A stretch of 64,000 bases of DNA from Lunularia cruciata (taxonomy: Eukaryota; Streptophyta; Marchantiopsida; Lunulariales; Lunulariaceae), in NCBI GenBank assembly GCA_948567375.1, contig OX419756.1:35168333-35232332 (forward strand), read 5' to 3'. This document shows, one piece after another, positions 14,543-56,687 of the stretch. The translations under genes were made by a program, and so were the position numbers. The notes below the pieces were generated by a model. That model was not told the origin of the DNA. It saw only the letters and a list, made by a program, of their open reading frames with translations, and searched no databases. The number at the start of each line of letters is the position of its first letter. Within the stretch, counting starts at the first letter, position 1.

Positions 14543-14560
14543 AAGGGTCTTGTATTTACC

Positions 14561-22547: not shown

Positions 22548-22574
22548 ATCAATTACATCAAGTGAAAAATCAGT

Positions 22575-27420: not shown

Positions 27421-27629
27421 TTGATTATGCGCTATCCTTTATTTTCAACCAATGACATGTGTACATTGGAAGTTGACCCAACCCTAGTGTTCAGATTGGC
27501 TGCCACGCTTTGTGAGAGTAGGGATGATGTGGTTCCTACTACTAGAGCAAAGGTGGTTGATAGTGGATTTGACTTGGTTGAGAAGCATAGGATTTGCTCA
27601 ACAACCAGTGGTTTATGGTAGGCAACAGT

Positions 27630-28140: not shown

Positions 28141-28329
28141 TAACTACAGTCCGGGACCATGACAACATCAATTTCAGCTTTCAATGGTATAGTTACTTTG
28201 CCTAGTGATTTATTGGAGGGGAATGCCCATGTAGAGGATACTCCAATACCAAAGGAGATCACTCAAATTTGGAGTACGAGTGGGATTGTTCTACCCACCT
28301 TGGATGTTTCATTATGGAGTTTAGAGGAG

Positions 28330-29490
28330 GCATAACAACATCATGTACATTGATTGTTGTAGTAGGATTGGAGTGGAGCCTTTGTACCACCAAGGAGATG
28401 AGTGTGAAGATGAGCCTCCAAAGTTGATTACCTTGACATCTCTAGATACCACACTCATTTTTTGGCAGTATCTAATAGGAAGAGTATGTCTATTGGAGTT
28501 TTTTGGTGGGATTAGCACTAGACTAGCTATGGTACTACTGGAGTGTATACAAGTACAAAGGTACTTGTATATAGAAAGAGATGAAACTGCTAGGTGAGTC
28601 TCTCTCCATCATATGGCACACTTGGCCTATCAATATCCTAAGTTATTATTGATGTCAGTAGTTAGGGGTTATTAGTAGGCTCTACCAATAGAGATTTCTT
28701 TATTGGGGGCGTGTGATCTGGAGAGACATAGGCTTGTTCATTTGGTGATTTTTGGATGGCCATGTTAGGGACATACATGTGTTTGCCAAATTTTGGGTCT
28801 TTAGGATCCTCATTCTGGTGTCTTTTGGGAGATGTTATGCATACTTTGATATCTCTAGGTCCATCAATCTATTTCTCCAACTTACCTTTTGGAGAACATT
28901 CCTTTGATAGGTGATTCTCACACCAAAGAGGTGGAAACTACACATCAGGTCCATTCTTGGATGGGACTTGCTAGATGTTAGATGCAACCAGAGTGGGATC
29001 ACATGCTTATCATCTTTGTCTTTGGTGGATGAACCTCTTACCTAGAGAGGTTCTACAATGTGCTTATGATGGGATTAAGCAACAAGATCACATCATTGTT
29101 GATAAGATCTTGGATGTTGGGCATTAGTCTTAGATGGTGGTAGTGGCTGATAGGTTAGCTATGGCAGTAGTGAACCTAGTTGGACAACCTAAAGCCGCTT
29201 TTCCCTCACTTATGAGTTTCCCAAGCTCTCATGCATTTTGAGAAGGAGGTCTTGGATTGGTTTGGGACTCACCGTTAAAGTAGTTGGTGGAGCACAATGC
29301 CAATGAAAGAGAGTAGGCAATGGGTTTTTGCACTTGTATTATTGTTGTTCCAACAATGTCAAAGGCATCCAAGCGTCAGGTGTTAGGTCAGGCTATGGAC
29401 CTAAACTGTTTGACCTGGATTGTGAGCCTTGGCTTGGCAGAGCAATGTAGGATATGCTTGATAGGCATCACCACTCGGACACTTATGAGC
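28330..29490 (+). pseudogene. copy A C5-cytosine DNA methyltransferase
   Basis: Methyltransferase motifs in order I to X: CLLEFFGGIST (motif I, AdoMet binding), YLYIERDETAR (II), GWPC followed by a stop (IV), YLLENIP (VI), the VIII region and, near 29300-29420, AMGFCT...RQVLGQAMDLN (IX/X). A TGA follows ETAR as in copy D. Several frames are needed, so this copy cannot encode the enzyme. Confidence 0.8.
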
Positions 29491-29850
29491 CCTATGCCTA
29501 TCAAGACAATTTAGGCACATGTTGGGGCCGATGGAAAAAGTGGATTTGGTATTCTTGGGACACAACCAATAGCTACTAGGGAGAGTGGTCTACTTGGAGT
29601 CCATCCAAGTGAGTGTGGGCTACTTGGATTACACCCTTGGTCTACTTGCGATGCTGCTAGAGGATGTGTGGAGCTTGCAGCCAAAGTGGAGGGAGTTTTT
29701 CACATAGAGGTTGGGACCTCTAGTGGTTGGAAGTATGACACTATTGCTCCCAAGGGTCAAGTGTAGCAACTAGTCAGCATGTCTTCCACTCCTATAACAA
29801 GTACAAAGGATATTTGGGAGCCAAATCTTGGACCCAAGCTTATAGGAGAG
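29491..29850 (+). other. copy A methyltransferase-to-RT linker
   Basis: Glycine- and leucine-rich degenerate repeats (GLLGVHP, GLLGLHPWST patterns) joining the methyltransferase to the RT, found in the same place in copies B and D. No domain recognised. Confidence 0.5.
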
Positions 29851-31260
29851 GAAAAACAAAGAGTTTGGAGGTTCTTGAGGAGCTACATGAGTTTTTTTGC
29901 CTTCAGTATGAAGGATTTGGGTGCTCTAAAAGGACTTGGTATTTAGATTGAGATGACTAGTGATACACCAGTTTTCTGACATACTTATTGATATAGTGAT
30001 ATGGAGAGGACATTGATCTACAGTCATAGTAGAGACCTTTTTGAGGCTGGTTTGGTGGAGATTTCACATGGACGGTATGCATCAGTAATAGTGATGCCAA
30101 CTAAGAAGGATATGCATAGCAACTACACAAATAGATGGATGTGTGGAGATGCTTGTCTTATCAACCGATATACTAGGGCTGATCGGTATGCCATGCCTAC
30201 ACTAGAAGAGATCTTAGATGTGATTGGGCATGCAAAGGTCTTCAGTATTTTGGATCTTTGAGTAGGATATCACCAATTGCTGATCAAGGAGGAAGATAAG
30301 TCCAAGATAGCATTCTAGGCTATTGATCCTTACGGTAAGGATGTGTTATATCAGTGGAGGTTCTTACCATTTGGGTTAAAGAATGCTCTTGCTGAGTTCT
30401 AGAGGGTCATGGATAGGATCCTAGCTGGATTGAATTTTGCTTGGTGCTATATTGATGACATTTTGATCTATAGCACTATTATGGAAGAGCATGAGAGATT
30501 GTTGTTGGAAGTGTTTGAGAGGTTGAGTCTCATGGCCTCAATTTACACCCTAGGACGTTTAGGTTCTTCCATGAGCAAGTTGAGTATTTGGATCACACTA
30601 TCTACCCATGAGAACTTGGTGTTTAGCAGACCAAGGTGGAGGCTATTGCACATATTCCTTGGCCTATGGATGTGAGCAGAGTGCGAGCATTCCTTGGGTT
30701 GGTGAACTTCTATTGCCAATATGTTAGAGGATTTAGTGTCATTGCCAAGGCCTTGACAAAGCTGACCAAGCATACACATGAGTGGTGTTAGGGAGATGAG
30801 CAAGAGAGAGCTTAAGGAGAGGTTGACATTTGCTCCTATTTTGAGGAGACCAATTAGAGGATGACCATTTCAGGTTCACATTGATTGGAGTATGTTGGAG
30901 CTTGGAGCAATGCTTACCCAGTATGATGATGAGGGGAAGGAATTTGTGGTGGCCTATGCTAGTTTCTCCAATAGTTTAGCGGAGGTAAAGTATAATTCAT
31001 ATGGGAGAGAGTGCTTGGTAGCAATTTGGGCAGTAGCACATTTCTAATGGTACCTATTTGGTAACCCCTTCACTCTCATTACTGATCATCAACCACTGAA
31101 GTGGTTGATGGAGTCCGACAAGCTTTTAGGAAAGCTTGCACAATGGGCTTTGATTTTACAAGACTATGATTTCATGGTTGTTCATAGACCTGGAGTGGTG
31201 AACCATGATGCAGAGGGGTTGAGTAGAAACCCATATCCCAACCAGCAAGATCAGACTAGA
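29851..31260 (+). pseudogene. copy A reverse transcriptase and RNase H
   Basis: RT blocks: FEAGLVEISHG, MPTKKDMHSNY, MPTLEEILDVIGHAKVFSILDL, LPFGLKNA and the catalytic YIDDILIYS (near 30450). RNase H and connection: WSMLELGAMLTQ, ITDHQPLKWLMESDK and HRPGVVNHDAEGLSRNP. Frames are broken by TAG codons and shifts. Closest in type to Ty3/gypsy polymerases. Confidence 0.85.
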
Positions 31261-31439
31261 GCATGTTGACATGGTGACTTAGATGAGGAAATGGTACCAA
31301 GTTGGCATGCATCTACTTTTTTGTGTATATTTTTTGACGCTTTGGTGGTATCTCTCAAAATGCATACAAGAGGAGTTATTAAAGTTCAGATTCAGAGAGT
31401 GAAGATATTGGTATAGTTTAGCAAGATATTCATGATGAT

Positions 31440-32480
31440 CTCTTAATGATGGACTATTTTTGCACTAGTGTTGCAAGTGGTATAGTTGGGGCCAAGGAGA
31501 GAGACCATGTTCTTCAACAAGCCAGACAATTTAGATTGGAGGATATATACCTTTTGCGTGTATGGGAGGATGGTAGAGTGCGAGTAGTTCCATCTCATAG
31601 ACCACAATTGGTCTGTCATGCTCACAAGGAGCAAGGACATTTTGGAGTAAAGCGTACCTATAGCTTATTCCACAGTCATTATTGGTGGCACAATATGCAA
31701 GGTACAACAATTTGTTGCAAGATGTGTGGTTTGTGACCAAATTAGAGCATCATTCAATGCTCCTATGCCATAGTTAAACCCATTACCTATTATATGATTG
31801 GGTTACTATTGGGGTTTGGACTTCACTAGACCTTCATTGTTGACTGTGAGACATCATTGGTATGTTTTGGTGATGATGGAGCACTTCTCCAAGTGGATTG
31901 AGTTGGTAGCACTTCTTGACAAGTCCACTGAAGGGACGACTTATTCATTCCTAGATCGGGTTCTTAGTCATTTTGGTGCACCAATTGAGGTTTTGACTGA
32001 CTAGGGTACAGAGTTCTTGGGGGAGTTTCAAGTTTTGAATGACAAGGCTTTGATTGATCATCATACTACCTCCCAAGATCACCTTGAGGTAGATGGCTTA
32101 GCAAAGAGAGTGATTAAGACGATGAAGAGAGGATTGCAAAAGTTTGGTTTGCAGAGAAGCCACTTGGGAGATTGGATCTCCAATTACCTTGGTTGGCCAT
32201 GGGCTATTGGTTCAGCCGGCAAGTCTCCTTAGCATCCTTTTCTCCTTACTTTCTACTCTATAGACAAGATCCAGATTTACCTACAACCATTTATTGAGAT
32301 GCTACTGTAGTTCTGGACTTGGATGATCAAGATGTATGGGTGAGTGCATGTTCTCAATGTCTAGAGATCTTTGGGAGAGTGATGTCAATGGCCTTTGAGA
32401 ACTTTGTGATTGCTTAGCATAGGGATACCTTATGTTATGCTACTATTCAAGGAGGAGGTTATAGACCCTTGGTCTATTAA
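31440..32480 (+). pseudogene. copy A integrase
   Basis: Zinc-binding start (VCHAHKEQGHFGVKRTY ... RCVVCDQIRASFNAP across a shift), a catalytic core with GLDFT (first Asp), VLTD followed by a stop (second Asp) and a VDGLAKRVIKTMKRGLQ helix where copy B has the Glu in LVERVV. The C-terminal part has FSPYFLLY-type blocks. It would insert the cDNA and make the 5-bp duplications. Confidence 0.8.
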
Positions 32481-32489
32481 TTTCATCCA

Positions 32490-32870
32490 TTGGACTATGT
32501 ATATCTACAAGAGACAACACCAATGATACTTGATGTATTAATAGGCTGCACTATCTTGAGAGTGCACAAGGTTTTGCCATTAGGAGTCCTTGTGTTGGAA
32601 GGATGTGATGGTGTTGTTTGGAAGGATCATGTGGGCAATTGTGCACCATACCCCCTCCCAAACATTGATGGTACTATGGACCCAAGCTTGATGCTTGTAT
32701 GTGTAGGCTTGTGGTGTATATTATGTGGTTCTTCTGGTGGAGCTACTACTATGTTAGTGTGTGATAGCCATTCAAGAGGATGGCATATGGCATGTATGAC
32801 TCCTCCCCTCACAATGGTTCCTCAAGGATAGTGGTTATGTCCTAGATGTACTTGACCTATAGCTAGTTCA
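32490..32870 (+). pseudogene. copy A integrase tail with PHD finger
   Basis: A ~60-residue segment (TILRVHKVLPLGVLVLEG, CAPYPLPNIDGTMDPS) leads into a C4HC3 PHD finger: CILC ... MLVCDS, then GWHMAC and WLCPRC. A TAG lies just before the last cysteine pair and one CxxC is altered (CDSH), so zinc binding is damaged here. Confidence 0.8.
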
Positions 32871-33022
32871 TCCTTTAAATGGTATAGATTGCAGACAAGT
32901 GATTAACGATGAGGCTTGATAGCACCTAGCCTCATGATCTTTGCCCATCATAGGGTATACCATATACTTGGAGTAGACGGCTATCTGGAGTTAGAGAGAT
33001 CTAACCGCAAGCTAGAGGGCAA

Positions 33023-33436
33023 TTATGGCACTTTAGAGTCTTTGTATGACTTATGTTATGTGTCTTAAGTGTATGATGTTGATAGTGATGTATATACGCA
33101 AGGCAACCATCACGCCATTTGTAGTGTCGCATCTAGATTGCTTGGACATTGGAGTTGCAGTAATAGTAGTTAGAGGTATTTTAGCAGTCACTTATAGACT
33201 ACTTTCTGATGGTTAGATTTTGTGTTGAGGTACTAACTTCATGGTGGGGCACACTGTCACTTTGCATTGTTTTCATTGTTGGGTGTGCCGTTAGTGGGAC
33301 CATGAGGGTTTTGGACCTAGCTCAAGTCTAGGGGTATACTTTTGAAGTACAACTCTAGAGAACTCACTTCTCTGATGTTGAGCCTTTGAGTTCTTGGCTA
33401 TGGTGGACAGAGGCTGGTGAGCATCACTTGGATTCT
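33023..33436 (+). repeat. copy A block B1 and first part of A2
   Basis: B1 starts TTATGGCACTTTAGAGTC after the purine tract AGAGGGC (33014-33020) and runs to 33107. A2 starts at TCACGCCATTTG and is cut at 33436 by element F. A2 resumes at 44984. Confidence 0.8.
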
Positions 33437-33814
33437 TGTGACAACCTAGAAAATATCATCTTTGTGGTAATTGGGTAAGTAAAGTTTGTTCCTGCAGAGA
33501 TACAAGTAAAAAATGTCCAAATATGAAGCACAGTAACAATTTTAGTTCTTCTTGGTTGCGTCTTTAATCTCTCAGGTAGAAACCACACCCAAAAGAGAGT
33601 AACAAGCACTGATTCTCAGTCTTGTCATGAACTAACACTCCTTAATCACAACGCCATCAAATCTTTCCAAACAATCTTGATTGTGATGATTCAGGCTCTC
33701 CTGAAAATAGCACTTCATTGCAAAACAACTTCACCTCAGAATTGTGTTCCACCCCTCCATTGAAGGCACAACTTACTCGATTGAAATTGCTTCATATCAA
33801 CTTTGCATTGCACT

Positions 33815-34522
33815 GTCGTGCATATATACATTGCTACACAACATACATCACTGTCAACATCATACACTATAGAAGCACAACTCACACATAAGTCATACAT
33901 AGACTCTAAAGTGCCACAATTAATCAGATTGCTTAACACTTTCAACTCAACTCAGATCAGTACTTGATCTGTCACTCTATAAACTGCCAACAACTGGGCA
34001 CTGATTACAGTCAAGCCACACCCACTCAAGCATAGAGAATCCAAGTGACGCTCACCGGCCTTTGTCCACCATAGCCAGGAACTCGAAGGCTCAACATCAA
34101 AGAAGTGAGCTCTCTAGAGCTCACTTCGAAACTATACCCCCTGGACTCGAGCTAGCACTGAAACCCTAACGGTCCCGCTGACGGCACACTTGACAGTGCA
34201 AACGGTGCAAAGTGACGGTGGGCTCCACCGTGAAGTCAGTACCAAATCAGACTGTCAGAAAGTAGTCCCTAAGAAACTACTAGAATAACTCTAACTACTA
34301 TCACTGGAACTCCAGTGTCCGAGCAGCTAGATGCGGAACTACAAATGGCATGACAACTATCACTAGAACTCTAGTGTCCGAGCAGCTAGATGCGGAACTA
34401 CAAATGGCGTGACAGCTATTGTGCGTATATACATTGCTACACAACATACATCGTTGTCAACATCATACACTATAGAAGCACAACTCACACATAAGTCATA
34501 CATAGACTCTAAAGTGCCACAA
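33815..34522 (-). repeat. copy D 3' terminus: B1-A2-B2
   Basis: Read on the minus strand: purine tract AGGGGGGCGA (34532-34523), B1 (34522-34415, starts TTGTGGCACTTTAGAGTC), A2 (34414-33921, starts TGTCACGCC, ends CTGATTA), B2 (about 33919-33815, starts TTGTGGCAC, ends GCACGAC). The host-side end is B2, not A2. Confidence 0.85.
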
Positions 34523-34690
34523 TCGCCCCCCTAGCTGGCGGTTAGGTCCCTCTAACTCCAGATAGCCATCTACTCTAAGTATATGGTATACCGTCTAATG
34601 GGCAAAGATCAGGAGGCCGGGTGCTATGGAGCCCCATCGTTAGTCACCTGTCTGCAATCTATACCATATAAAGAATGAACTAGCTATAGG

Positions 34691-35023
34691 TCAAGTACAT
34701 CTAGGACATAACCACTGTCCCTGAGAAACCACCATGAGGGGAGGAGTCATACATGCCATATGCCATCCTCTCGAACAGCTATCACACACTAACATAGTAG
34801 CAGCTCCACCAGAAGAGCCACATAACATACACCTCAAGCCTGCACGTACAAGTGCCAAGCTTGGGTCCATAGTACCATCAATGTTTGGGAGGTGGCATGG
34901 CACACAATTGTGCACATGATCCTTCCAAACAACACCATCACGTCCTTCTAACACAAGGACTCTAGATGGCAAAACCTCACGCACTCTCAAGATAGTGCGG
35001 CCTGTAGAAACATCAAGTGTCAT
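34691..35023 (-). CDS. copy D integrase tail with PHD finger
   Basis: An open stretch of about 110 codons. The first ~60 residues (TILRVREVLPSRVLVLEGRDG, CHLPNID) are a conserved post-integrase segment. They lead into a complete C4HC3 PHD finger: CMLC, 11 residues, CDSC, SRGW, HMAC, then W-x-CPRC, ending one residue later. PHD fingers read histone tails, mainly H3K4 states. At this place in pol, chromoviruses have a chromodomain, so the likely role is to steer integration by chromatin mark (inference). The frame is continuous with integrase only through shifts. Confidence 0.85.
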   Translation of the reverse strand: MTLDVSTGRTILRVREVLPSRVLVLEGRDGVVWKDHVHNCVPCHLPNIDGTMDPSLALVRAGLRCMLCGSSGGAATMLVCDSCSRGWHMACMTPPLMVVSQGQWLCPRCT

Positions 35024-35950
35024 CGGTGCTGTCTGTTGTAGATATACATAGTTACCTGGATGAAATCGACGGATCGAGGGTCTATAACTTCCTCCTGGCG
35101 TAAAGTATCTCTATGCTGAGCAATCGCCAAGTTCTCAAAGGCCATTGGCATCACTCTCCGAAAGATCTCTGCCCGCTGAGAACATGCGCTCATCCATACA
35201 TTGGGGTCATCCAAGTCCAAAACTACTATAGCATCTCGACAAATGGCTACAGGTAAATCTGGATCTCGTCCATAGAGTAGAAAGTATGGAGAGAAGGATG
35301 CTAAGGAGGCTTGCCGGCTGAACCGATAGCCCATGGCCAACCAAGGTAACTGGAGATCCCAATCTCCCAAGTGGCCTCTTTGCAAACCATACTTTTGCAA
35401 TCCTCTCTTCACCATCTAAACCACTCTCTCTACTAAGCCATCTGCCTCAAGGTGATCTTGGGATGCAGTATGATGATCAATCAAAGCCTTATCACACAAG
35501 ACTTGAAACTCTCCCAAGAACTCTGTACCTTGTCAGTCAAAACCTCAGCTGGTGCACCAAAATGACTAAGAACTTGATCCAGGAATGAGTAAGCTGTCCC
35601 TTCACTAGACTTGTCAGGAAGTGCCACCAACTCAATCCACTTGGAGAAGTGCTCCACCATCACCAAAACATACCGTTGATGTCTCATAGTGAACGGTAAA
35701 GGTCCGGAGAAGTCCAAACTCCAACGGTAACTCAATCCCATGATAGGTAATGGGTGTAAATGTGGCATAGGAGCATTGAATGATGCTCTAACTTGGTCAC
35801 AAACCACGCATCTAGCAACAAACTGCTGCACCTCGGTCTGCATACCGCGCCACCAATAATGACTCTGGAGTAAGCTATATGTACGCTTTACTCCAAAATG
35901 TCCTAGCTCCTCATGAGCATGACGGACCAATTGTGGTCTCTATGATGGAA
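35020..35950 (-). pseudogene. copy D integrase
   Basis: Zinc finger HAHEELGHFG ... CVVCDQVRASF, catalytic core with WSLDFSGPLP (first Asp), HFSKWIELVALPDKS, EVLTD (second Asp, followed by a 1-base loss) and the Glu helix (near 35420) leading to MVKRGLQKYGLQRGHLGDW. Then SFSPYFLLYGRDPDLP and RAEIFRRVMPMAFENLAIAQHR. Two frames cover it. Retroviral-type DDE integrase of the Ty3/gypsy kind. Confidence 0.88.
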
Positions 35951-36122
35951 GTGGTACTACTCACACTCTACCATCCTCCCATACACGCAAAAGGTGTCTA
36001 CCCTCCAATCTGAACCGTCTGGCTCGCTGAAGAACACGGTCTCTCTCCTTGGCCCCAACTGTGCCACCCACAACACTAGTGCAAAGATAGTCCATCACTA
36101 AGACATCATCATGAATGTCTCG

Positions 36123-37110
36123 CTAAACTGTACCAATATCTTCACTCTCTGGATCTGTGACCTCAATAACTCCTCCTGTATGCACTGAGAGAGATACCAC
36201 CAAAGTCTCTGCAAATATACACAGAAAGGCCGATGCATGCCAACTTGGCACCATCTCCTCATCTGTCTCACCATGCCAACGTGCTCCGGTCTGATCCTGC
36301 TGGCTGGGACATGGGTTTCTACTCAACCCATCTGCATCACGGTTCACCACTCCAGGTCTGTGAACAACCGTGAAATCATACTCTTGTAAAATCAGAGCCC
36401 ATCGTGCAAGCTTCCCTGAAAGCTTGTCGGACTCCATCAACCACTTCAACGGCTGATGATCAGTGATGAGAATGAAGGGGTTACCAAGTAGGTAACATCG
36501 GAAATGTGCTATTGCCCAAACTGCTGCCAAGCACTCTCTCTCATATGAACTATACTTTGCCCCCGCTGAATTGTTGGAGCGACTAGCATAGGCCACCACA
36601 AACTCCTTCTCCTCATCATCATGCTGGGTGAGCACCGCTCCAAGCCCCAACATACTCCAATCAGTGTGAACCTGAAATGGTCGTCCCTTGATTGGTCTCC
36701 TCAAAATAGGAGTAGATGTCAACCTCTCCTTGAGCTCTACAAAAGCTCTCTCCTGCTCATCTCCCCAACACCACTCCTGTGTAAGCTTGGTCAGCTTGGA
36801 CTTATCCTCCTCCTTGATCGGCAACTAATGATATCCCGCTCGAAGATCCAAAGTACTGAAGACCTTTGCATGCCCAATCGCATCAAAAATCTCCTCCGGT
36901 GTAAGCATGGCATACCGATCAATCCTGGTCTGTCGGTTGATAGGATAGTAATCTCCACACATCCGCCTATCTGTATAGTTGCCATGCATATCCTTCTTGG
37001 CTGGCATCACTGTCATTGATGCATACTCTCCATGTGAAATCTCCACCAAACCAGCCTCAAAAAGGTCACTACTCCGGCTCTGAATCAATGTCCTCTCCAT
37101 ATCACTATAA
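36123..37110 (-). pseudogene. copy D reverse transcriptase (core deleted) and RNase H
   Basis: The RT start is present (FEAGLVEISHGEYAS, MPAKKDMHGNY, PEEIFDAIGHAKVFSTLDLRAGYH). After KEEDKSK the sequence jumps to LTKLTQEWCW in the connection domain, so the YIDD catalytic region present in copies A, B and C is gone. A CCAAG word sits at both edges of the deletion as judged from copy B (~478 bp lost). RNase H is open for 233 codons: DWSMLGLGAVLTQ, YERECLAAVW, ITDHQPLKWLM, NRDADGLSRNP. Confidence 0.88.
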
Positions 37111-37640
37111 CGATAAGGACATCAGAAAACTGGTGTGTCGCTAGTCAGCTCAATCCGTATACCAGGTCTCTTTAGAGCACCCAAATCCTTCATACTGAAG
37201 GCAAAACAACTTGTGTGGCTCCTCAAGAACCTCCAAACCTCCGTCTTTCCTCTCTAGTAAGCTTGGGTCCAAGATCTGGCTCCCCAGTATCCTCTGTAAC
37301 TGTAGTAGGAGTGGAAGACGTATTGACTGGCTGCTACACTAGGCCCTTGGGAGCAATAGTGTCATGCTCCCGACCACTAGAGGTCCCAACCTCTGTGCAA
37401 AAAACTCCCTCCACTCTGGCTGCAAGCTCCACATGTCCTCTAGCTGCATCCCATGTGGACCAAGGGTATAATCCAAGTAGCCCACGCTCACCTAGATGGA
37501 CTCCAAGTAGACCACTCTACCTAGTAGCTACTAGATGTGTCCCAAGAATACCATGTCCACTTGGTCCATCGCCCCCAATATGTGCCTGAATTGTCTTGAT
37601 AGGCACAGGGCTCACAAGTGTGAGAGTGGTGATGCCTATC
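37111..37640 (-). other. copy D methyltransferase-to-RT linker
   Basis: A linker of ~180 codons rich in Gly, Leu and Pro, with degenerate 10-11-residue repeats (GLLGVH, GLLGLYPWST). No domain recognised. Conserved in position in A, B, C and E. Confidence 0.5.
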
Positions 37641-37649
37641 AAGCGCATC

Positions 37650-38746
37650 CTACGCTGCTCCGCCAAGCCAAGGCTCACAATCTAGGTCAAACAGTTCAGG
37701 TCCATAGCCTGACTTAACACCTTACGCCTAGATGCCTCTGACACTGCTGGAACAACGGTAATACCGGTGCAAAAACCCATCGCCCGCTCTCTCTCATCAG
37801 CATTGGGCTCCACCAACTGTTGTAACTGTGAGTCCCAAACAAGTCTCGGTCCTCCCTCTCAAAAAGCATGAGAGCCTAGGAAACTCATGAGTGTGGGAAA
37901 TGCAGCTCTAGGCTGTCCAACTAGGTTCACCACTACCATAGGTGACCTATCAGCCACTACCACTATTTGAGACTGACGTCCAGCATCCAAGATATCATCA
38001 ACAAGAATGTGGTCTAGTCGTTGAATCCCATCATAACTACGCTGTAGAACCTCTCTGGGTAAGAGGTTCGTCCACCAAAGACGAAGATGATGAGCCCGTG
38101 ATCCCACTCTGGCTGCATCTAACAATACAGCAAGTCCCATCCAAGAATGGACCTGATGTGTACTCGCCACCACTCTAGTGCAAGAATCACCCATCAAAGG
38201 AACGTTCTCCAAAAGGTAAGCTGGAGAAACAGACTGATGAACCTGGAGATGTCGTAGTATCCGTAACATCTCCCAAAACACACCAGAATAAGGATCCTAA
38301 AGACCCAAACCGCGGCCCACACGTGTATGTCCTTGACATGGCCATCCAGAAATCACCAAGTGAATAGGCCCATGTCTCTCTAGGTCATGCACCTCCAGTA
38401 AGGAAATGTCTCCTGGTAAGGCCTTCTGGTAACCTCTAATTGCTCATATTGGTAATAACTCCGGATACCGATAAGCCAAGTGTGCCACATGATGTAGAGA
38501 GACTCACCTAGCAGTCTCATCTCTCTCTACATACAAGTACCTCTGTACTCGTATACCCGCCTGTAACACCGCAGCTAGTCCGGTGCTGATCCCACCAAAC
38601 AACTCCAATAGACATATCCCCTCTACTGGATACTGCCAAGCAATGAGTGTGGTATCTAGAGGTGTCAAAGCAATTGCCTCTGGAGGCTCATCCTTACACT
38701 CATCCCCTGATGGTACGAAGGCTCCACTCCAAGCCTGCTGCACCAA
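37650..38746 (-). pseudogene. copy D C5-cytosine DNA methyltransferase
   Basis: An enzyme that methylates cytosine at C5 using AdoMet. Reading leftward: motif I CLLELFGGISTGLAAVLQAG (near 38600), motif II YLYVERDETAR, HLVISGWPCQGHTRVGRG (motif IV, catalytic Cys in PCQ, near 38340), YLLENVPLMGD (motif VI, near 38205), RVGSRAHHLRLWWTNL (motif VIII-like, near 38090) and ERERAMGF...QAMDLN (IX/X, near 37660-37790). The order I to X is that of DNMT1/DNMT3 enzymes, not the permuted DRM order, and the motif wording is closest to DNMT3. It is broken by TGA after ETAR, TGA after LLPI, TAG before DPYSG and a shift after the SHAF stop. It lies in the polyprotein order between protease and RT, so it is element cargo. 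Confidence 0.9.
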
Positions 38747-38949
38747 CTGATCTGCATGCTACTGCAATGCCTCCTCTGAACTCCACAATGGAACATCCAA
38801 GGTGGATGGAACAATCCCACTCGTACTCCAAAGCCGAGTGATCTCCTCTGGTACTGGAGTATCCTCTGCATGGGCGTTCCCCTCCAACAAGTCACCAGGC
38901 CAAGTAACTGCACTGCTGAAAGCCAAAACTGATGCTGCCATGGTCCGGA

Positions 38950-39484
38950 CTATAGTGAGCCAAGACTGCCACTACTGAAGCGTACTGGTAGGCGACATAC
39001 CCGTCCCTCACCAGACTGCCAACCAGGTCTATAAGAGGTTGTCTCCTCCCAATAGTCAATGCTGAAACCCATAGGGTATAACACTGCTCCCCCAACTAGC
39101 ACATCATATGACTCAACTATCATCGCAATAGCTTGAGCTCTCACCACCGAGCTATCAGTCGGATGACCAGGCTGAACCTAGACAACAAGCTCTCCACGTG
39201 TGATGTACTGTGTCAAACCACCACCAAGAGATGTCTGGATCTAAAATGGACACATCTCCATATCGGTCTTCCATAACTCTAGACCAACAACTGTAGCCTT
39301 CCCCAACATAAGGGGCTGAGCACCAGAGTCTAACAAGACTCTCTGTGGTGTATAGACCTTCCCTGAAGGTCCCACCAAACAAAAGATCCCCCTCTGGTTA
39401 TCCAATAGGACAACACCAGGTGTAAACTGCGCTCTCTCAAAGGCCGGTCTAGTTGGCAACTCCTCCAGTCTAGTTGTTGCTGCC
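38950..39484 (-). pseudogene. copy D aspartic protease and extension
   Basis: Retropepsin-like: FERAQFTPGVVLLDNQRG, then VLLDSGAQPLMLGKA with the catalytic DSG (near 39325), GLELWKTDMEMCPF. An extension conserved in copy A follows (VVRAQAIAMIVESYDVLVGG, PMGFSIDYWEE). An in-frame TAG separates it from the gag C-terminus. No function known for the extension. Confidence 0.75.
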
Positions 39485-40404
39485 TACCATAAACCACTGG
39501 TCGCTGAACGGATCCCATGCTCCTCAACCAAGTCAGCTCCACTACCAACCACCTCTGCTCTAGTAGTAGGAACTGCACCATCCCTACTCTCACACAACGT
39601 GGCAGCCAACCGGAATACTGAGGCTGGGTCAACTCCCAATGTAAACATGCCACTGGCTGAAAATAAAGGATGCTGCATAATCAGCTGAGCCGCCCCCAAC
39701 ATCATGCTAGACTCAATCTGTGTAGTAGCAGGTGGCTGACTAGCAGGTACTCCATCAAGTACTCCATCACCACCTACCACACTTGCACTGGGACGTCTAG
39801 GAACCATGGATGTTGTCTGTAATGCCTCAGATAGCGTGAAAGATTGGGGAAGTCTTACCTGTCTCCCAACCTCTCCTCTCTGTGGGTCCAACTCCACTGA
39901 TGCTCCTCTAGGCTCTGGAGCACGTACTGCACTCCTAGTCACTACTGCAGATACATCCACCTGTGCTACTCCACACATGAAGTCCAAAGCATCTCTATCA
40001 CCAGCATATGAGGTGGAAGCCTCAGCACCCGAATCTGATCTCCTTTGAGCAATAGCCATACTAGCCAATCTCTGCTCCAACTGCTCAATCTGAGTAGCCA
40101 TAACTATATCAGAAGTAAGGGCAGGTATTGCACCCCTACAAGGTGTAGATCCTCTACCACCACCTCTACCACCTCGTCCTCCATGAACTGGAGCTCCTCT
40201 ACTACCTGCCATAGCAGCCCTACCACTCCGTAACTCCGGATGTAGGTCAAAACACCGGTCACTAGTGTGACCAAATCTGTGGCAGTGCTCACACTGCCTC
40301 TGTGCTGGATGTGATGCACCAGAGGTATCATGTCCGCTGCCCTGAGTACACTCTCTCCTATGGTGAGGTCCACCACAAGTCCAACAAGCAACACCACCAC
40401 TCAC
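39484..40404 (-). CDS. copy D gag C-terminus with two zinc knuckles
   Basis: 306-codon open frame. It opens with two nucleic-acid-binding knuckles, CWTCGGPHHRREC (C-x2-C-x3-H-x4-C, slightly short) and CEHCHRFGHTSDRC (standard CCHC). A Gly/Arg-rich stretch follows, then a helical segment (ATQIEQLEQRLASMAIAQRR). It ends at the TAG before the protease. Role: binding element RNA in the particle. Confidence 0.82.
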   Translation of the reverse strand: MSGGVACWTCGGPHHRRECTQGSGHDTSGASHPAQRQCEHCHRFGHTSDRCFDLHPELRSGRAAMAGSRGAPVHGGRGGRGGGRGSTPCRGAIPALTSDIVMATQIEQLEQRLASMAIAQRRSDSGAEASTSYAGDRDALDFMCGVAQVDVSAVVTRSAVRAPEPRGASVELDPQRGEVGRQVRLPQSFTLSEALQTTSMVPRRPSASVVGGDGVLDGVPASQPPATTQIESSMMLGAAQLIMQHPLFSASGMFTLGVDPASVFRLAATLCESRDGAVPTTRAEVVGSGADLVEEHGIRSATSGLW

Positions 40405-40524
40405 TGGCTGCTGCTTACCCGAAAATGAGGGTAAGGGTCTAACTCCACTAGGCCCTCCACTCGCTCCATAGGATCTGGGTTGTCCACCCTTTCCTTGAAA
40501 ACCAACTGGGCGTGGTGCACTCTA

Positions 40525-41450
40525 CTACACTCTAGAAGAAGTCACAACCGTGGATGAGGTCTCTCTACCAAATCCAGATGTCACCACTCTCTCCTCCACC
40601 ATGTTGAGCTCAATACGCTCAGCCAAACCAAAGACTACTGCCAAAGTGGGCAAAGTAGCCTGCAACAACGTAGCATCATGAACTCTACGTCGCAACTCCC
40701 TGTCCAGTATCCCATACCAAAACTGGACTGCCTGGGCCTCAATAACTCCCTGAGTGAAACTGATCAGCCACCTCATGCAAGTGTATGCCTTGCGTAGGCT
40801 CTCTCCAGCCTTCCGCTGGAACTCCTGCAAGCTCCTCAGCTTGTCAGTCCGCACTCCCTGGTAGTTCTGCCTCAAACATAGGAAGAACTCAACCATGGGG
40901 TTAAACCCCGGTACCACACCACCTCCTGCAGCGGTACCTCCACTCGTAGTAGCACTATCTCCAGCTACTGCACCTCCACTAGCTCCACCAACACTACTCG
41001 AGCTAGAACTCGTGGGTACAGCCGATCTACTCCTGGCCACCGAGCCTGAAGTAATGGAGACGTAGTGTGGAGACCAATACTATCTCTATAACTCAATCTC
41101 CTCCAAATGAGCTCTCTTGAACTCATGGTAGTCATCCATCGGCAGATCCTCCAGATGTTGAAACAACCCCTTCCATGCAATGAAGGGTGTGAACAAAGTC
41201 GGGTTCCGCATCTGCTGCAGATCACACCAACTATCAAACTCCTAGATGAAGTCATCCAACTCAATGGTACCCACTATACCAGAGTAACGCCTAGGGCCTT
41301 TGGAGGCCCCATAAATCTTGTCCATGTCCCACAACAACGGTGCAGACACACCAAGTGCACTCTCAATTGAATCAACTCTTGTATCAAACTCCAACTTAGA
41401 GTCAATCTCCTCCCTCACTGGGACTTGAGATACAAGCTAATACCGAGCAT
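40525..41450 (-). pseudogene. copy D gag capsid region
   Basis: Upstream part: SIESALGVSAPLLWDMDKIYG, GTIELDDFI and HLEEIEL, broken by TAG codons. A 171-codon open stretch (41040-40525) then holds a Ser/Gly-rich spacer and the retrotransposon gag core (NYQGVRTDKLRSLQEFQRKA, ESLRKAYTCMRWLISF, ATLPTLAVVFGLAERIELNM). Confidence 0.8.
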
Positions 41451-42079
41451 CACTCCGAGTAAACCCACTGCGTATTGCAGGGCTAACTCCTCTAGAATCT
41501 CCAAAGAACTCCATTGTGACCATGTAACTACAACAGCAAACCCGAACCACCAACTGCAACCGCAAGTCGCAACCGCAAGTGCCCCACCAAGTGCCAACAC
41601 CACCACGTGCCAACACCAACTAGACACCACCTACTAATGTAACTCTAACCGAGATAACTACACTAGGGGAAAGGCAACCTGTAACCTGCCATCATAACAC
41701 GTACTCTCACGGTCTGCATGTCATCACTTCCTGCCTCACCGGAGAGAAACAAAGGTAGTCTGATTGGTCATCACTCCAATCTCACCACCAAGAGCACACC
41801 AGAGCACCAACGCTCAAAAGTCAAGGCACCTCACACAAACGTGATGCACAAACAAGAAGCAGAGAATGGAGGGGATCCAATCACAAGAAATCTAAATAAA
41901 AACCCTCCATCTCATAACACAACACGGGACTGACTCTGCCACCATTTGGCATTTGACATAAGAGCAGTTTGTATCTAAGTCCTAAGCTACCAGGATCACC
42001 AAGAATGGGATCAAACTGCTTCTCCTAGCCAAAGCTACATATGTATAGATAACAGTTGCGCAGTCACTAGGACAACAAG

Positions 42080-42147
42080 TGAGGGTGGACCAGTTGGCTA
42101 GGGCACCAGTCTAGGAACAAGAGATCTAGGGGTCAAACCCTATTGCG
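42080..42147 (+). other. tRNA-like segment, antisense in copy D leader
   Basis: On the plus strand, opposite to the element, an A-box-like TGGACCAGTTGG (42086-42097) is followed 31 bp later by a B-box-like GGGGTCAAACCC (42129-42140), the spacing of a tRNA gene's internal Pol III promoter. I could not draw a good anticodon stem, so it is tRNA-derived rather than a working tRNA. Copies A (~25175-25245), B (~48780-48840) and C (~59025-59095) keep it. Confidence 0.6.
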
Positions 42148-42878
42148 CACAATCTAGCAAGAAAGGCAGATTTTGCTAACCAATGACCAAGATCTACTCT
42201 AAACTAGCTAGCCTCACGCCAGCAAGCTGGCTTGCTGGCTCTTCTAGGCCTTCGTAACCTCTCATAGCCCTATGCCTCAAAGCCTCTAAATGCCAAAATT
42301 CAGCCAAATGAGGCCTTTCTTGTTACCACTTCGAAACCTCCTCCAAAATTGGCGAAACTTCTCCAAATCTGCAAAAGTCCTCCAAACTAGCAAAAGTCCT
42401 CCAAATCTGGCCAAACAGCAAAAACTCCTCCAAATCTGGTCCAAAATTTGACGTAAATTTGACGTAAAATCTGACGTAAACCCTAAAGATGGCTGTCCGC
42501 CAAATCCCCCGCTAACTTTCCACTCTAGCCAAATTGACAAAATGGGTTTTTCCAAATTACAATTTCATGAGAAGAGCTTCCCAACTCCACCTTCAATTTC
42601 ACTTTCTGAGCCCAACTCGTAGTAAATTGGTCCTGCCTTCACCTCTTGAGCTCAAAATCACAACACTACTCGAAAATTGCTCTTTCTTTGCTCTAAATTT
42701 GGCCAGCGCTTCCGCACATTGTCCGCCTAAGTGCCAAATCTGAATCACTTGAACGAGCTTCTGCACACTAGGGAAACACAGAACTTGAATCGAGCTACCA
42801 TGATCCACCGAGCTTGGAGATACCACCAGCACTCAACGTTCCTGCACCTGATTTCCCCCTGACTTCACTTCTTTGATG

Positions 42879-43387
42879 TAATCATATTGCTTAACACTTT
42901 CAACTCAACTCAACTCAGATCAATACTTGATCTGTCACTCTATAAATTGCAAACAACTGGGCACTGATTATAGTCAAGCCACACCCACTCAAGCATAGAG
43001 AATCTAGGTGACGCTCGGCGGCCTCTGTCCACCATAGCTAGGAACTCGAAGGCTCAACATCAGAGAAGTGAGCTCTCTGGAGCTCACTTTGAAACTATAC
43101 CCCACTGGACTCGAGCTAGCACTGAAACCCTAACAGTCCCGCTGACGGCACACTCGACGGTGCGAACGGTGCAAAGTGACGGTGGGCCCCACCATGAAGT
43201 CAGTACCCTGAACACCAAATCAGACTGTCAGAAAGTAGTCCCTGAGAAACTACTAGAATAACTCTAACTACTATCATTGGAACTCCAGTGTTCGAGCAGC
43301 TAGATGCAGAACTACAAATGGCGTGACAACTATCACTGGAACTCCAGTGTCCGAGCAGCTAGATGCGGAACTACAAATGGCGTGACA
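42879..43387 (-). repeat. copy D terminal block A1
   Basis: Starts TGTCACGCCATTTG at the host junction and ends ...ATGATTA next to the internal start CATCAAAGAAGTGAAG. Contains the ~65-bp tandem duplication also seen in D's A2. No B block on this side. Confidence 0.85.
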
Positions 43388-45201
43388 ACACTCACAAATG
43401 TAGAATACTACCAACACTATAATTCCTCTCAGATCTGTCAAGGCATTGCTTTGATTGCACTTCACTCAGGATCAAACACATAGAATGAAGATCAAGGCTA
43501 TGGAATCCAACATCCAACAAGCACATTGACTTGCACTTCAAATTTCTCCACAAACTCACAAACATAGACACAAAGTTGATACTCAAAATCAAGCTCAAGC
43601 AACGAGCACTACTTCACAACACTTTGCTTTATCTATTCTCATAAATAATGAGCATTGAACAACATAAGACTACAAATGCCACTCTTAAATAGTGAAGCAA
43701 TTGCTAGTTATCTTCCTAATTTACCTCTTCCTAACAACTCTACAAACCTGCAGATCCGAAATAACAATGCACCTCTTCATATCTACCTCTTCAAATCTTC
43801 AAAACTGTTACTAATCCGATCCAATGTCTACTTCTTCCCCGACTTTCAAACCCAATCCCAAAGTAACTTCACTTCCTACTACTCTATCCTCGGGTTTCAC
43901 AACTCTTATTTTCTCTACCAATTTTACTAATTCTCCACTCTAATCTACAATTTCTATCACAAGTAATCCTTTTAAATCTCTATCTCCCGACCCACTCTTC
44001 TCTAAAGTGTCAAATGTCAAATCCAAAGACACCTGCACTCCTATCTCACTTATTTTGGGTTTAACTACTATCAATTACTTTACTAATTCTATTGTGTCAT
44101 CATCAAAAATTATAATTGAAAGCATGAATACACTATCTACACATTCAATTTGTAACCCACTTTTCCATAATCATTCATGTAACTGACTTGAAGACACTTA
44201 TTGTTTGATTTTGCACTTTGGGTTTATTCACTACTCCTACTTCTGCTTCAATTCATGTTCCATCTTCAATCAAAACTGACATTGAAGTCATGGGTATCCT
44301 AACTATATTCTTTCCCTACTCTAACTTCCTCTGATCCCTTGGGCAAAACTCTCGAAGTCACCTTCATTGCACTCCGAGGTCTGACTTCCTTGGGTTGAAT
44401 CATATTTGTCTTGAGGTAAAGTCTTTAGTCCCAAAGTCATGTAAACACGAAGTCCGAAGTACGAAGTCCAAAGTCAAATTGACCCGAAGACACCAAACTA
44501 CTTTGTACATCTACTCCTAAAACTTCAAATGCTTGTAACTTCTTTTACAAACCTCCAAACTTTACGATTTTAGTGGCAATGGAAAGCCCTAAACGAAACG
44601 CTTCCAATGAAATATAGCATGCTTGATTTGGACTTGTGAACATTGAGATATGGCTCCCGCAATATTCTTGACTTGTAACCTTCATTCCAATGCGAAAAAA
44701 CCCTCCTTCGGCATCTGGTCCAAGTTTTTCCCTCCTCTGACACGAAGTAAGCTTCTTTGGGTTTGATCCAGTCCGAGTTTTTCCCTCCTCTGACACAAAG
44801 TAAGCTTCTTTGGGTTTGATCTAGTCCGAGTCCTTCTTCCTCTAACACAAAGTTGACTCCCTCGAGCTTGATCAAAACACACGTTTCCACTCATTTCTTC
44901 TCCATTTGGTTTCAATTTGGTTTCAACAAGGCACTTCTTCTTCAAAACTCGTCCAAAATGAAAAATGTGTGTACCACAATTCTCTTAGCAAGAGTGGGTA
45001 TGGCTTGATTGTAATTAGTGCTCAATCATTGTCAATTTATGGAATGACAAATCAAGTACTGATCTAAGTTGAGTTGAGTTGATTCAAGTGGTATAAACAA
45101 ATTGATTATTGTGGCACTTTAGAATCTCTATATGACCTATGTGTGAGTTATGTGTCTATAGTGTATGATGTTGACAACAATGTATGTACACACAAAATGA
45201 T

Positions 45202-47578
45202 CTCAAAAGGTAGTACAATGATCAATCAAAGCCGTGTTGCACAAAACCTGAAATGCCCCAAAGAACTCTATACCCTAATCAGTCAAAACCTCAACGTGTG
45301 CACCAAAATGACTAAGATCTAAGAACAAGTAAGCCGTCTCTTCAATGGACTTGTCAAGACCTCAATCCACTTGGAGAAGTGCTCCACCAGCATGAAAACA
45401 TATTGATCATGTTTCATAGTCAATGGTAAAGGTCCAATGAAGTCCAAACTCCAATAGTAATCTAACCCCATGAAAGATAATGGTTGTAATTGTGGCATAA
45501 AAGATTAAATGATGCTCTAACTCGGTCATAAACCACACATCTGGCAACAAAATGTTGTACATTAATCTACATGTTGTGCCACCAATTACGACTTTGGAGT
45601 AAGCTATATGTACTCTTTACTCCAAAATGTCTTGGCTCTTAATAAGCATGACATACCAATTGTGGTCTCTAAGATAGAAGTGATACTACTTGCATTCTAC
45701 CATCCTCTCATACATGAAGAAGGTATCTACACTCCAATCTGAACCGTCTGGCTTGCCAAAGAACACAATCTCTCTCCTTGGCTCCAATTGTGCCACCCAC
45801 AACACAAGTGCAAAGATAGTCCATCACTAAGACATGTTCATGAATGCCTTGTTGAACTGTACCACTATCTCTACTCTTTGGATCTATGTTCCCAATAACT
45901 CTTCTTGTATGAATTGAGTGAGATACCACCAAAGCCTCAAAAACTATGCATAAAAAGGTAGATGCATGCCAACTTAGCACCATCTCCTCATCAATCTCAC
46001 CATGCTAACATGCTCTGGTCTGATCTTGTTGGCTAGGACATGGGTTTCTACTCAACCCATCCACATCACGATTCACCACTCTAGGTTTGTGAATAACCAT
46101 GAAATCATACTCTTGTAAAATTAGAGCCCATCATGCAAGCTTCCTTGAAAGCTTATTGGACTACATCAACCACTTTAGTGATGAGAGTAAAGGGGTTACC
46201 AAATAGGTAACATAAAAAATGTGCTACCGCCCATACTTATGCCAATTACTCTCCCTCATATGAACTATATTTTTGCCTCTACTGAATTGTTGGAGCAATT
46301 AGCATAGGTTACCATAAACTCCTTTTCCTTATTGTCATACTGGATGAGCACTACTCCAAGCTCCAACATACTCCAATTAGTATGAACCTGAAATAGTCAT
46401 TCTCTAATAGATCTCCTCAAAATAGAAGCAAATGTCAACCTCTCCTTAAGCTTTACAAAAGCTCTCTCTTGCTCATCTCTCCAACACCACTTGTGTGTAA
46501 ACTTGGTCAACTTTGTCAAGGCCTTTGGTAATGGCACTAAATCCTCTAATATAGTGGCAATAGAAGTTTTCTAACCTAAGGAATGCTCACCTTCTGCTCA
46601 CATTTGTAGGCCAAGGAATATGCACAATAGCTTCTACCTTGGTCTACTGAACACCAAGTCCTCCAAGATAGATAGTGTGGCCCAAATACTTAACTTGCTT
46701 GTGGAAGAACCTACATTTCCTAGGATGTAATTTGAGTCCATGAGATCTCAATCTCTCAAATGCCTCCAACAAATGTCTCTCATGCTTCTCCACAATAGTG
46801 TTATAGACCAAAATGTCATCAATATAGCTCCAAGCAAACTCCAATCCAACTAGGATCTTATCTATGATCCTTTGGGACTTGGCGGGAGTGTTCTTTAACC
46901 TAAATGGTAGGAACCTCCATTGATATAACACATCCTTGCTGTGAGGATCAATAGCCCAAAATGCTATCTTGGACTTATCCTTCTCTCAAATCAACAATTG
47001 ATGACATCTTGCTCGAAGATCCAAAGTATTGAAGACCTTTACATGCCCAATTAGATCAAAGATCTTCTTTGGTGCAGGCATGACATACCAATCAACCCTA
47101 GTCTGTCGGTTGATTGGACAGTAATCTCACACATCCACCTATTTGTTTAGTTTCCATGCATATCCTTCTTGGTTGGCATCACTATAGCTAATGCTTACTC
47201 TCCATGTGAAATCTCCACAAAACCAATCTTCAAAAGATCTATACTTTGGCTTTGAATCAATGCTCTCTCCATATCACTACATTGATAGGGACGTCAGAAA
47301 ACTAGTGTATCATTAGTTAGCTCAATTTGAATACCAAGTCCTTTCAAAGTACCCAAATCCTTCATATTGAAAGTAAAACAACTCATGTAGCTCCTCAAGA
47401 ACCTCCAAAATCTCCATCTTTCCTCTCTTGTAAGCTTGGGTTCCAAATCTGGCTCCCAAGTATCCTTTGTAATTGTCGTAGGAGTGGAAGACGTATTTGA
47501 TTGGCTACTATACTGGACCCTTGGGAGTAGTATTTTCATGCCCCCAACCACTAGAGGTCCAAACCTTAGTGTGAACAA
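45202..47578 (-). pseudogene. copy E, middle part: integrase start, RNase H, RT
   Basis: Continues E's integrase interrupted at 24090. Reading leftward from 47578: linker, RT (YIDDILVYN near 46820, HPRKCRFFHKQVKYLGHTIY), RNase H (near 46000-46500) and the integrase zinc finger (near 45550-45660). Frames are heavily broken. The piece ends at 47578 where copy B inserted. Confidence 0.78.
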
Positions 47579-48032
47579 TGTCACGCCATTTGTAGTTCTA
47601 CATCTAGATGCTCGGACATTGGAGTTCCAGTGATAGTAGTCAGAGTTATTTCAGCAGTTTCTCAGAGGCTACTTTCCGATGGTTAGATTTTGTGTTCAGG
47701 GTACTAACTTCATGGTGGAGCCCACTGTCACTTTGCACCGTTCACACCGCCAAGTGTGCCGTCAGCGAGACTGTTAGGGTTTTAGAGCTAGCTCAAGTCC
47801 AGGGGGTATAGTTTTGAAGTGAGCTCGAGAGAGCTCACTTCTCTAATGTTGAGCCTTCGAGTTCTTGGCTATGGTGGATAGAGGCCGGCGATCATCACCT
47901 AGATTCTCTATGCTTGAGTGGGTGTAGCTTGACTGTAATCAGTGCCCAGTTGTTGGCAGTTTATAGAGTGACAGATCAAGTATTGATCTGAGTTGAGTTG
48001 AGTTGAGTTGAGAGTGGTAAGCAATTTGATTA
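47579..48032 (+). repeat. copy B terminal block A1
   Basis: 454 bp, TGTCACGCC to TTTGATTA, then internal CATCAGAGAAGTGAAG. Directly repeated as A2 at 56129-56577 but without any B block at this end. Confidence 0.88.
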
Positions 48033-49369
48033 CATCAGAGAAGTGAAGTCAGGAGGAAATCTAGTGCATGAACTTTGAATGTTGGTGGTATCTCCAAGCT
48101 CAATGGATCATTGGTAGCTCAATTCAAGTTTAGTGTTTCCCTAGTGTGCAGAAGCTCATTCAAGTGATGCAAATTTGGCAGTTAGGCGGACGGTGTTTAG
48201 AAGCGCATGCCAAATTTCGAGCAAAGAAGGAGCAAATTTTGAGCAATGGTTGTGATTTTGAGCTCAGGAGGTGAAGGCAGGACCAATTTGCTGCGAGTTG
48301 GGCTCAGAAAGTCAAATTGAAGGTGGAGTTGGGAAGCTCTTCTCATGAAATTGTGATTTGGAAAAACCTATTTTGTCAATTTGGCTCAAGTGGAAAGTTA
48401 GCGGGGGATTTGGTGGACAGCCAACTTTAGGGTTTATGTCAAATTTTACGTCAGATTTTGGTTGGGATTTACGTCAGATTTTGGCCAGAATTGGAGGAGT
48501 TTTTGCTATTTGGCCAGATTTGGAGGAGTTTTGCTAGTTTGGAGGAGTTTTGCAGATTTGGAGAAGTTTTGCCAATTTTGGATGAGGTTCGAAGTGGCAA
48601 CAAGAAATGCCTCATTTGGCTGAATTTTGGCATTTTGAGGCATAAGGCTGTGGGCTATGAGAGGCTACGAAGGCCTAGAAGGGCCAGCAAGCCAGCTTGC
48701 TGGCATGAGGCTAGCTAGTTTAGAGTAGATCTTGGTCATTGGTTGGCAAAATCTGCCTTTCCTGCTAGATTGTGCGCAGTAGGGTTTGACCCCTAGATCT
48801 CTTGTTCCTAGACTGGTGCCCTAGCCAATTGGTCCACCCTCACTTGTTGTCCTAGATGACTGTGCCACTGTTATCTATACACATGTAGCTTTGGCTAGGA
48901 GAGGCAGTTTGATCCCATTCTTGGTGATTCTAGTAGCTTAGGACTCAGATACAAACTTCTCTTATGTCAAATGCCAAATGGTGGTAGAGTCAGTCTCGTG
49001 TTGTGTTATGAGATGGAGGGTTCTCATTTAGATTTCTTGTGATTGGATCCCTTCCATTCTCTGCTTCTTGTTTGTGCACCATGTTTGTGTGAGGTGCCCT
49101 GACTTTTGAGCGTTGGTGCTCTAGTGTGCTCTCAATAGTGAGGCTGGAGTGATGACCAGTCAGACTACCTTTGTTTCTCTCTAGTGAGGCAGGAAGTGAT
49201 GACCTGCAGACCGTGAGAGTGCGTGTTATGATAGCAGGTTATAGGTTGCCCTTCCCCTAGTGTATTTATCTTGGTTAGAGTTACATCAGTGGGTGGTGCT
49301 TAGTTGGTGTTGGCACGTGGTGGTGTTGGCACTTGGTGGGGCACTTGTGGTTGCAACTTGCGGTTGTAG
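48033..49369 (+). other. copy B leader
   Basis: Long non-coding leader. It holds a ~26-bp minisatellite (GCCAGATTTGGAGGAGTTTT words, about 48470-48590), the antisense tRNA-like segment (48780-48840) and a TGGTGGTAGAGTC primer-site-like word near 48980, some 0.95 kb past A1. GT-rich repeats (GTTGGCACTTGGTGG) come before gag. Confidence 0.6.
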
Positions 49370-55450: not shown

Positions 55451-55552
55451 GGAGGTTATAGACCCTCGATCCATCGATTTCATCCAAGCAATTATGTATA
55501 TATACAGCAGACAGCACCAACAACACTTGATGTTTCTACAGGCTGCACTATC

Positions 55553-56682: not shown

Positions 56683-56687
56683 AACAA

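Follow-up and report, generated by a model that had tools for sequence, protein, structure and literature searches.

An abundant Ty3/gypsy retrotransposon family of the liverwort Lunularia cruciata carries a predicted DNMT3-type cytosine methyltransferase

Can a retrotransposon family of a land plant carry its own DNA methyltransferase as regular cargo, and what could such an enzyme do for it? The question is raised by a stretch of 64,000 nucleotides from the liverwort Lunularia cruciata (assembly GCA_948567375.1, contig OX419756.1, positions 35,168,333 to 35,232,332; hereafter the window, whose coordinates are used throughout), in which a first-pass annotation made from the letters alone had described, under positions 37650..38746, five copies, A to E, of a gypsy-type element with a C5-cytosine methyltransferase (MT). 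In copy B, we place the MT at 37631..38665 on the minus strand. Our results make the identity of this MT-carrying gypsy family well supported: it is real, abundant, under constraint, and structurally unusual. The kind of element is already known from KnitGypsy-Dnmt3 of Klebsormidium nitens, according to the part of de Mendoza et al. (2018; PMC5890265) available to us, to which all statements on that paper refer. What is new is the spread in liverworts and Sphagnum, the MT in the Gag-side open reading frame (ORF), the PHD finger, the geometry of the repeat junction, and the copy number. The split repeats, the UAG that parts MT from RT, the PHD finger, and the copy number also go beyond the first-pass annotation.

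The plan of the element was read in fetched loci (numbered L) and in the window copies. ORF1 encodes gag, protease, and MT, with the MT as its last domain (1428 aa in L009), and ORF2 (1037 aa in L013 and L014) encodes reverse transcriptase (RT), RNase H, H2C2, the rve integrase, and, at its C-terminus, a PHD finger. In the two 1037-aa open frames, Pfam matched RT-RNase H followed by H2C2 and the DDE (rve) integrase, the order expected of Ty3/gypsy, in line with the gypsy-type assignment of the first-pass annotation; the PHD finger was matched in open copies by PF00628 (2e-10 in L014). The gag part gave a weak match to PF03732 (E 0.07, below the cut-off), and ORF1 also contains a CCHC-like knuckle and a protease with a DSGA motif, the aspartyl protease family being matched by Pfam in the homologue P0086. 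No phage-integrase family was matched by Pfam in ORF2, where the rve integrase was found instead. A DIRS identity, for which a tyrosine recombinase and no target duplication would be expected, was ruled out by this integrase together with the 4-bp target duplications described below. ORF1 and ORF2 share one frame and are divided by a single TAG in 25 of 25 copies (20 fetched and the five of the window), and the six bases 3' of it read CAR YYA in 22 of the 25 by our own count. We take UAG CAR YYA to be the tobamovirus-type leaky stop. In most copies, the UAG between MT and RT thus has a leaky-stop-like context, an arrangement that would supply the enzyme at the level of Gag and leave Pol to readthrough.

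The motifs of the MT stand in unpermuted order: I (ELFGG), IV (WPCQG), VI (LLENV), VIII (RAHRLRLWW), and IX (ERERAMGF). The closest solved relative is DNMT3, so that both the order and the likeness named in the first-pass annotation were recovered for these five motifs, while a DRM identity, for which a permuted order would be expected, was rejected. The whole fold matches DNMT3A; a first AF2 model built with 22 sequences was poor (A1, pLDDT 50.5), and a second was used instead (A2, pLDDT 89.8). Motif IV reads SGWPCQGHT in the element versus GGSPCNDLS in DNMT3A. The catalytic Cys is legible in 24 of 25 copies, the ENV and AdoMet motifs are mostly retained, and the open MT frames of L005, L007, L008, and L009 reach 31-38 bits, above the PF00145 cut-off of 22. 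Judged by its sequence, the element is predicted to encode a complete DNMT3-type cytosine methyltransferase.

A chance insertion, as opposed to family cargo, would be betrayed by copies that mostly lack the segment, a genome-wide check that the first-pass annotation had proposed together with a PF00145 search. In the 565.77-Mb assembly (eight of the contigs matched are 60-85 Mb long), the PF00145 profile gave 123 scored places, all above the cut-off, of which a few are host genes and most match one same stretch of the profile; the first four of the latter to be fetched (L005-L008) are family members, 79-95% identical to the window copies. Of 12,926 first-look candidates from a protein search, 127 were scored, and all of these were of about full length and at least 93% identical. 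Counting family-specific 26-mers with at most two mismatches, for which reversed-pattern controls gave 0 each time, we obtained 3,825 places for gag, 3,921 for MT, 4,941 for RT, and 5,138 for integrase. The MT word matches the gag word in frequency; by this measure, loss of the MT is no more frequent than loss of gag, and copies do not mostly lack it. Its position is also fixed. Among the exact matches listed on contig C1, RT lies 1.5-3.5 kb downstream, in the same orientation, at 44 of 63 MT places; the spacing is 2134-2178 bp (most commonly 2163) in 39 of these 44 pairs, and 0 of 100 RT places had an MT in an unexpected position or orientation; gag lies about 1.47 kb upstream at 46 of 57 MT places. 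In a small sample of 20 pieces of 3 kb at fixed positions, family sequence makes up four places and 9,662 of the 60,000 bases: one place includes the MT (L039), one is a deletion derivative without it (L048), and two (L042 and L043) are cut by the edges of their pieces before the MT position. These distributions support the MT as family cargo at a fixed position, as the first-pass annotation had proposed.

Selection on the coding regions was estimated as the ratio of nonsynonymous to synonymous differences (pN/pS) in 20 fetched copies, compared with neutral star-tree simulations (30 runs each). The MT shows a ratio of 0.379 (codon bootstrap 0.271-0.545), versus 0.682 under neutrality with a lowest simulation of 0.545, and RT a ratio of 0.296, versus 0.654 with a lowest simulation of 0.509. 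The ratios of gag (0.427; lowest simulation 0.575), the protease region (0.473; 0.537), and integrase (0.472; 0.485) also lie below their simulations, and pooling all 25 copies gives 0.428 for MT and 0.413 for RT. The MT is thus under constraint, and an explanation by decay only is disfavored by these ratios. Some points count against this reading and suggest caution: the ratio of RNase H (0.423) does not fall below its simulations (lowest 0.368), the upper bootstrap limit of the MT touches its lowest neutral simulation (0.545), neutrality was modeled with a star tree, and the 20 copies are a non-random set that we picked from the PF00145 hits, favoring long frames.

The ends of the element are less conventional than its domains. 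Instead of one identical long terminal repeat at each end, as in Ty3/gypsy, the repeats are split in the order A1-coding-B1-A2-B2. In most copies, a polypurine run (AGGGGGGCG) lies 5' of B1, and ACATCAGA follows A1, where a tRNA primer site would be expected, with only a short resemblance to an initiator-Met site. Of 19 B1-A2 junctions, 14 have the form GACA-NN-TGTC, and 11 of these 14 are the palindrome GACAGCTGTC; a further three elements include one with the palindrome and two without it. The halves of this palindrome are the ends of the element; genomic copies begin with TGTC on the left and end with GACA on the right (right end in 13 of 14 in one set and 5 of 6 in another). With flanks read by eye, a perfect 4-bp target duplication was found in 9 of the 11 elements in which both flanked ends were seen (TAGC, CATA, TTTA, ACCG, ATGT, TCCT, AACC, AGGG, and ACAA); of the remaining two, copy B of the window has one mismatch and L013, probably a recombinant, has none. 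A target duplication in the range of 4-6 bp and TG..CA ends are those of Ty3/gypsy. Of the 12 fetched elements measured, 10 have an A1-A2 distance of 0.7-3.2%, L024 one of 5.6%, and L013 one of 11%; in the window, the distance is about 8% in copies B and C. These figures leave out copy A and L010. Between 21 A repeats taken from the fetched loci, the mean is 4.1%. Distances within elements below the mean between A repeats indicate that both A copies are renewed together. A cDNA repeat delimited by the polypurine tract on one side and the 5' leader on the other would have the order B-A, and the genomic ends fall at the B/A palindrome within it, as if the DDE integrase cut a two-repeat (B-A) circle there. 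The simplest reading would be an integrase acting on joined B-A ends, comparable to the circle junctions of some insertion sequences.

Database searches with the MT retrieved relatives from Calypogeia fissa, Sphagnum troendelagicum, S. tenellum, S. fallax, Marchantia polymorpha, M. paleacea, and Riccia sorocarpa (67 matches in one search and 34 in another), in addition to many further public contigs, which places the family in land plants, as supposed at first pass, with close relatives in the named liverworts and Sphagnum. Among the proteins of Marchantia, Calypogeia, and Sphagnum are homologues whose MT follows gag or protease sequence. In the Marchantia protein P0068 and in P0070, from a public contig, the last MT motif begins 98 and 94 residues before the end of the protein. 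In our tree, whose single DNMT3 outgroup sits on a long branch and from which a length filter removed the named Sphagnum sequences, the enzymes of the element, Calypogeia, Marchantia, and several public contigs form one clade (support 100/100), and the proteins P0089-P0099 (11 rows) form a second group (100/100). The elements of this second group resemble ours, where matched, in RT-RNase H (34-46% identical), integrase (40-55%), PHD finger (42-50%), and enzyme (34-42%). They differ in that those read have a single long ORF with the enzyme between RNase H and integrase (RNaseH-MT-integrase, versus protease-MT-UAG-RT in bryophytes), and some have a further C-terminal domain. Because RT, integrase, PHD finger, and MT all have relatives in both forms, both could descend from one ancient gypsy lineage of green algae and early land plants, combining integrase, PHD finger, and DNMT3, rather than from repeated captures. 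The MT would have moved within the element, integration would occur at an internal palindrome, and the lineage would be the prevailing repeat in a liverwort genome of doubled size; we put this combined reading forward tentatively, at somewhat less than even odds. As a separate observation, P0091 and P0099 have a C-terminal stretch past the PHD finger with a DPWAGT..TSPW/TSPH pattern, which in P0091 is weakly like the D12 adenine methyltransferase (Pfam E 0.16, below the cut-off). Elements of this type may encode a second kind of methylase.

The precedent named at first pass, methyltransferase genes in retrotransposons of dinoflagellates and charophyte algae, is real: DNMT-bearing retrotransposons occur in Symbiodinium and Klebsormidium, with independent acquisition argued for the K. 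nitens lineage (PMC5890265). By its published description, KnitGypsy-Dnmt3 shares with the Lunularia family an unpermuted DNMT3-type enzyme in a gypsy-type element, a DIRS-like repeat arrangement with gypsy domains, and purifying selection on the enzyme. In contrast, its enzyme lies in the Pol polyprotein ORF, whereas the MT of Lunularia ends ORF1 before the UAG, and DNMT-bearing copies are fewer in K. nitens than in Symbiodinium, compared with word counts of 3,800-5,100 for the Lunularia family. SymbioDIRS-Dnmt3 and SymbioLINE-Dnmt of Symbiodinium are likewise retrotransposon-borne C5 methyltransferases at high copy number, and two SymbioDIRS enzymes methylate CG in yeast, but their backbones are DIRS (tyrosine recombinase) or LINE and they are described as independent of the gypsy case (PMC5890265). 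Among the titles listed by literature searches, we saw no liverwort element of this kind, which is a weak test of absence from print; the word methyltransferase does not occur in the main text of the Lunularia genome paper (PMC9985172). The family coexists with several host DNA methyltransferase genes. Among the PF00145 places, we read L001 and L004 as DNMT3-type exons (L001 checked against PDB, with DNMT3C/3A as best match, and L004 by eye), L002 as permuted and DRM-like, and L003 as a CMT-like piece. The host exon L001 and the element enzyme are both DNMT3-type, but BLASTP between them finds only 37% identity over 41 aa. With this one exon compared, a recent capture of that host gene was judged unlikely.

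What the enzyme does is best explained, with a probability of roughly 0.6 for the whole, by an MT that is packaged and acts on the element's own DNA. Most ribosomes would stop at the UAG, so that the MT would be produced at Gag-like levels and become part of the particle, and Gag-MT-Pol would arise when a ribosome occasionally reads through. Inside the particle, the MT would most likely methylate the fresh double-stranded cDNA de novo, with the CG preference expected of a DNMT3-type enzyme, and each new copy would land already methylated. The PHD finger on the integrase would help to choose chromatin, and the integrase would join DNA at both halves of the palindromic B-A junction, giving the 4-bp duplications. 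Methylation of its own cDNA as the purpose of the MT is our best guess. Several points weigh against this explanation. The sign of readthrough is the stop context only, with CAR YYA in 22 of 25 copies, and the Marchantia protein model P0071 continues from MT into RT-like sequence, as P0074, P0078, and P0082 join the MT with RT or RNase H domains, although such models may bridge the stop. Many copies are decayed, and the CG loss of old copies fits host methylation equally well; CpG depletion was thus rejected as proof of self-methylation, the loss at CG, CHG, and CHH being what host methylation would leave. Finally, the Klebsormidium gypsy enzyme gave no methylation in yeast, a result that its authors call inconclusive (PMC5890265).

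DNMT3-type enzymes are de novo methylases, and the MT could also be directed at the host, acting in trans on silencing targets or on the chromatin of insertion sites, or dampening the element for coexistence. The PHD finger of ORF2 could set a complex on chromatin, the family stands at thousands of copies, and several host-directed options are discussed in PMC5890265; nevertheless, the MT lies in the ORF of Gag and not in that of the integrase, and is hence expected in particles, which makes this alternative rather unlikely. The same link to Gag, together with the divergent motif IV, would suit a domain retained for nucleic-acid binding or particle structure after loss of catalysis. We regard this as improbable given the legible catalytic Cys, the largely retained ENV and AdoMet motifs, and a whole fold like that of DNMT3A. 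Lowest of all stands a neutral passenger, captured by chance and carried along by hitch-hiking: broken copies are many and L048 lacks the MT, but a ratio of 0.38 versus 0.68, an MT word as common as that of gag, and the homologous proteins of Marchantia, Calypogeia, and Sphagnum in which the MT follows gag or protease sequence leave it very little room. Packaging with self-directed methylation is thus the reading that we retain.

Within the window, copy B (33814..43387, minus strand) begins with TGTC and ends with GACA, between the imperfect duplication GTGT/GTGC. Its parts, all on the minus strand, are the gag region (39820..41619, by homology, with the knuckle seen by eye), the protease region (38771..39819, by homology and the DSGA motif), the MT given above (93% identical to an open-frame copy by tblastn, with recognizable motifs and five stops), the tail of ORF1 up to the conserved TAG CAG CCA (37337..37630), a partial RT (36792..37247) missing 450 nt of the compared stretch, RNase H (36321..36785, PF17917/PF17919 and homology), H2C2 and the rve integrase (34850..36320, Pfam on 35484-35939 and homology), and the PHD finger (34694..34849, 98% to that of an open copy). 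By BLAST edges, its repeats are A1 43387-42879, B1 34523-34416, A2 34414-33921, and B2 33920-33813. A 59-bp tandem duplication opens both A repeats (43387-43328 and 34414-34356), as expected if replication copies one end from the other. The two MT pieces of copy B matched no Pfam family, PF00145 included; this was attributed to decay and not to absence of the MT, and stops are present in all five window MT copies.

Copy C (47579..56683, plus strand), flanked by the target duplication ACAA/ACAA, sits in copy E and has its repeats at 47579-48032 (A1), 56020-56122 (B1), 56129-56577 (A2), and 56577-56679 (B2), and its MT, like those that follow located by tblastn, at 51403..52433. Copy A (24091..33436, plus) carries its MT at 28436-29469, similarity stopping within the 3' A repeat at 33436, and is adjoined by the 3' end of a further minus-strand copy (22568..24084; integrase end, PHD finger, and repeats). 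The coding part of copy D (58927..64000, plus; MT 61667-62684) is cut by the window end and adjoins the truncated end of copy E. Copy E, on the minus strand, is parted by copy C into an MT-side piece lacking its 5' part (56683..57690; MT homology 57688-56913) and an RT-RNaseH-integrase piece (45197..47578). The placement of the MT between protease and RT, in the direction of the element, accordingly holds for copies A to D, and for copy E on the RT side only, its protease side being missing. In the old copies (24091-64000), C-to-T loss generally follows CG > CHG > CHH, with 56% CG, 31% CHG, and 8% CHH in copy A, and CG and CHG equal at 30% in copy D, which suggests long-standing CG and CHG methylation. 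A young chromovirus at 14251-19286 has 422-bp repeats that are 99.1% identical (14251-14672 and 18865-19286), and its RT and integrase-chromodomain frames are open. It shares a Ty3/gypsy RT and integrase with the MT family but has a chromodomain in place of the PHD finger and an ordinary repeat pair, and no methyltransferase was found in its two open frames scanned.

Here, a genomic parasite brings the kind of tool that its host uses to silence parasites. Retrotransposons are main targets of DNA methylation, and one with a selected de novo MT of its own complicates the view of methylation as a weapon of the host only. The cases of PMC5890265 are algal and dinoflagellate, and the present family extends them to liverworts, including the genetic model Marchantia polymorpha, and to Sphagnum. 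The palindromic junction and the split repeats reopen the question of how elements of this kind form the ends that they integrate. According to the available part of PMC9985172, the genome of Lunularia cruciata is almost twice the size of those of the other liverworts studied, mostly through Ty3/Gypsy bursts, and the MT-bearing family may be a main cause of this growth.
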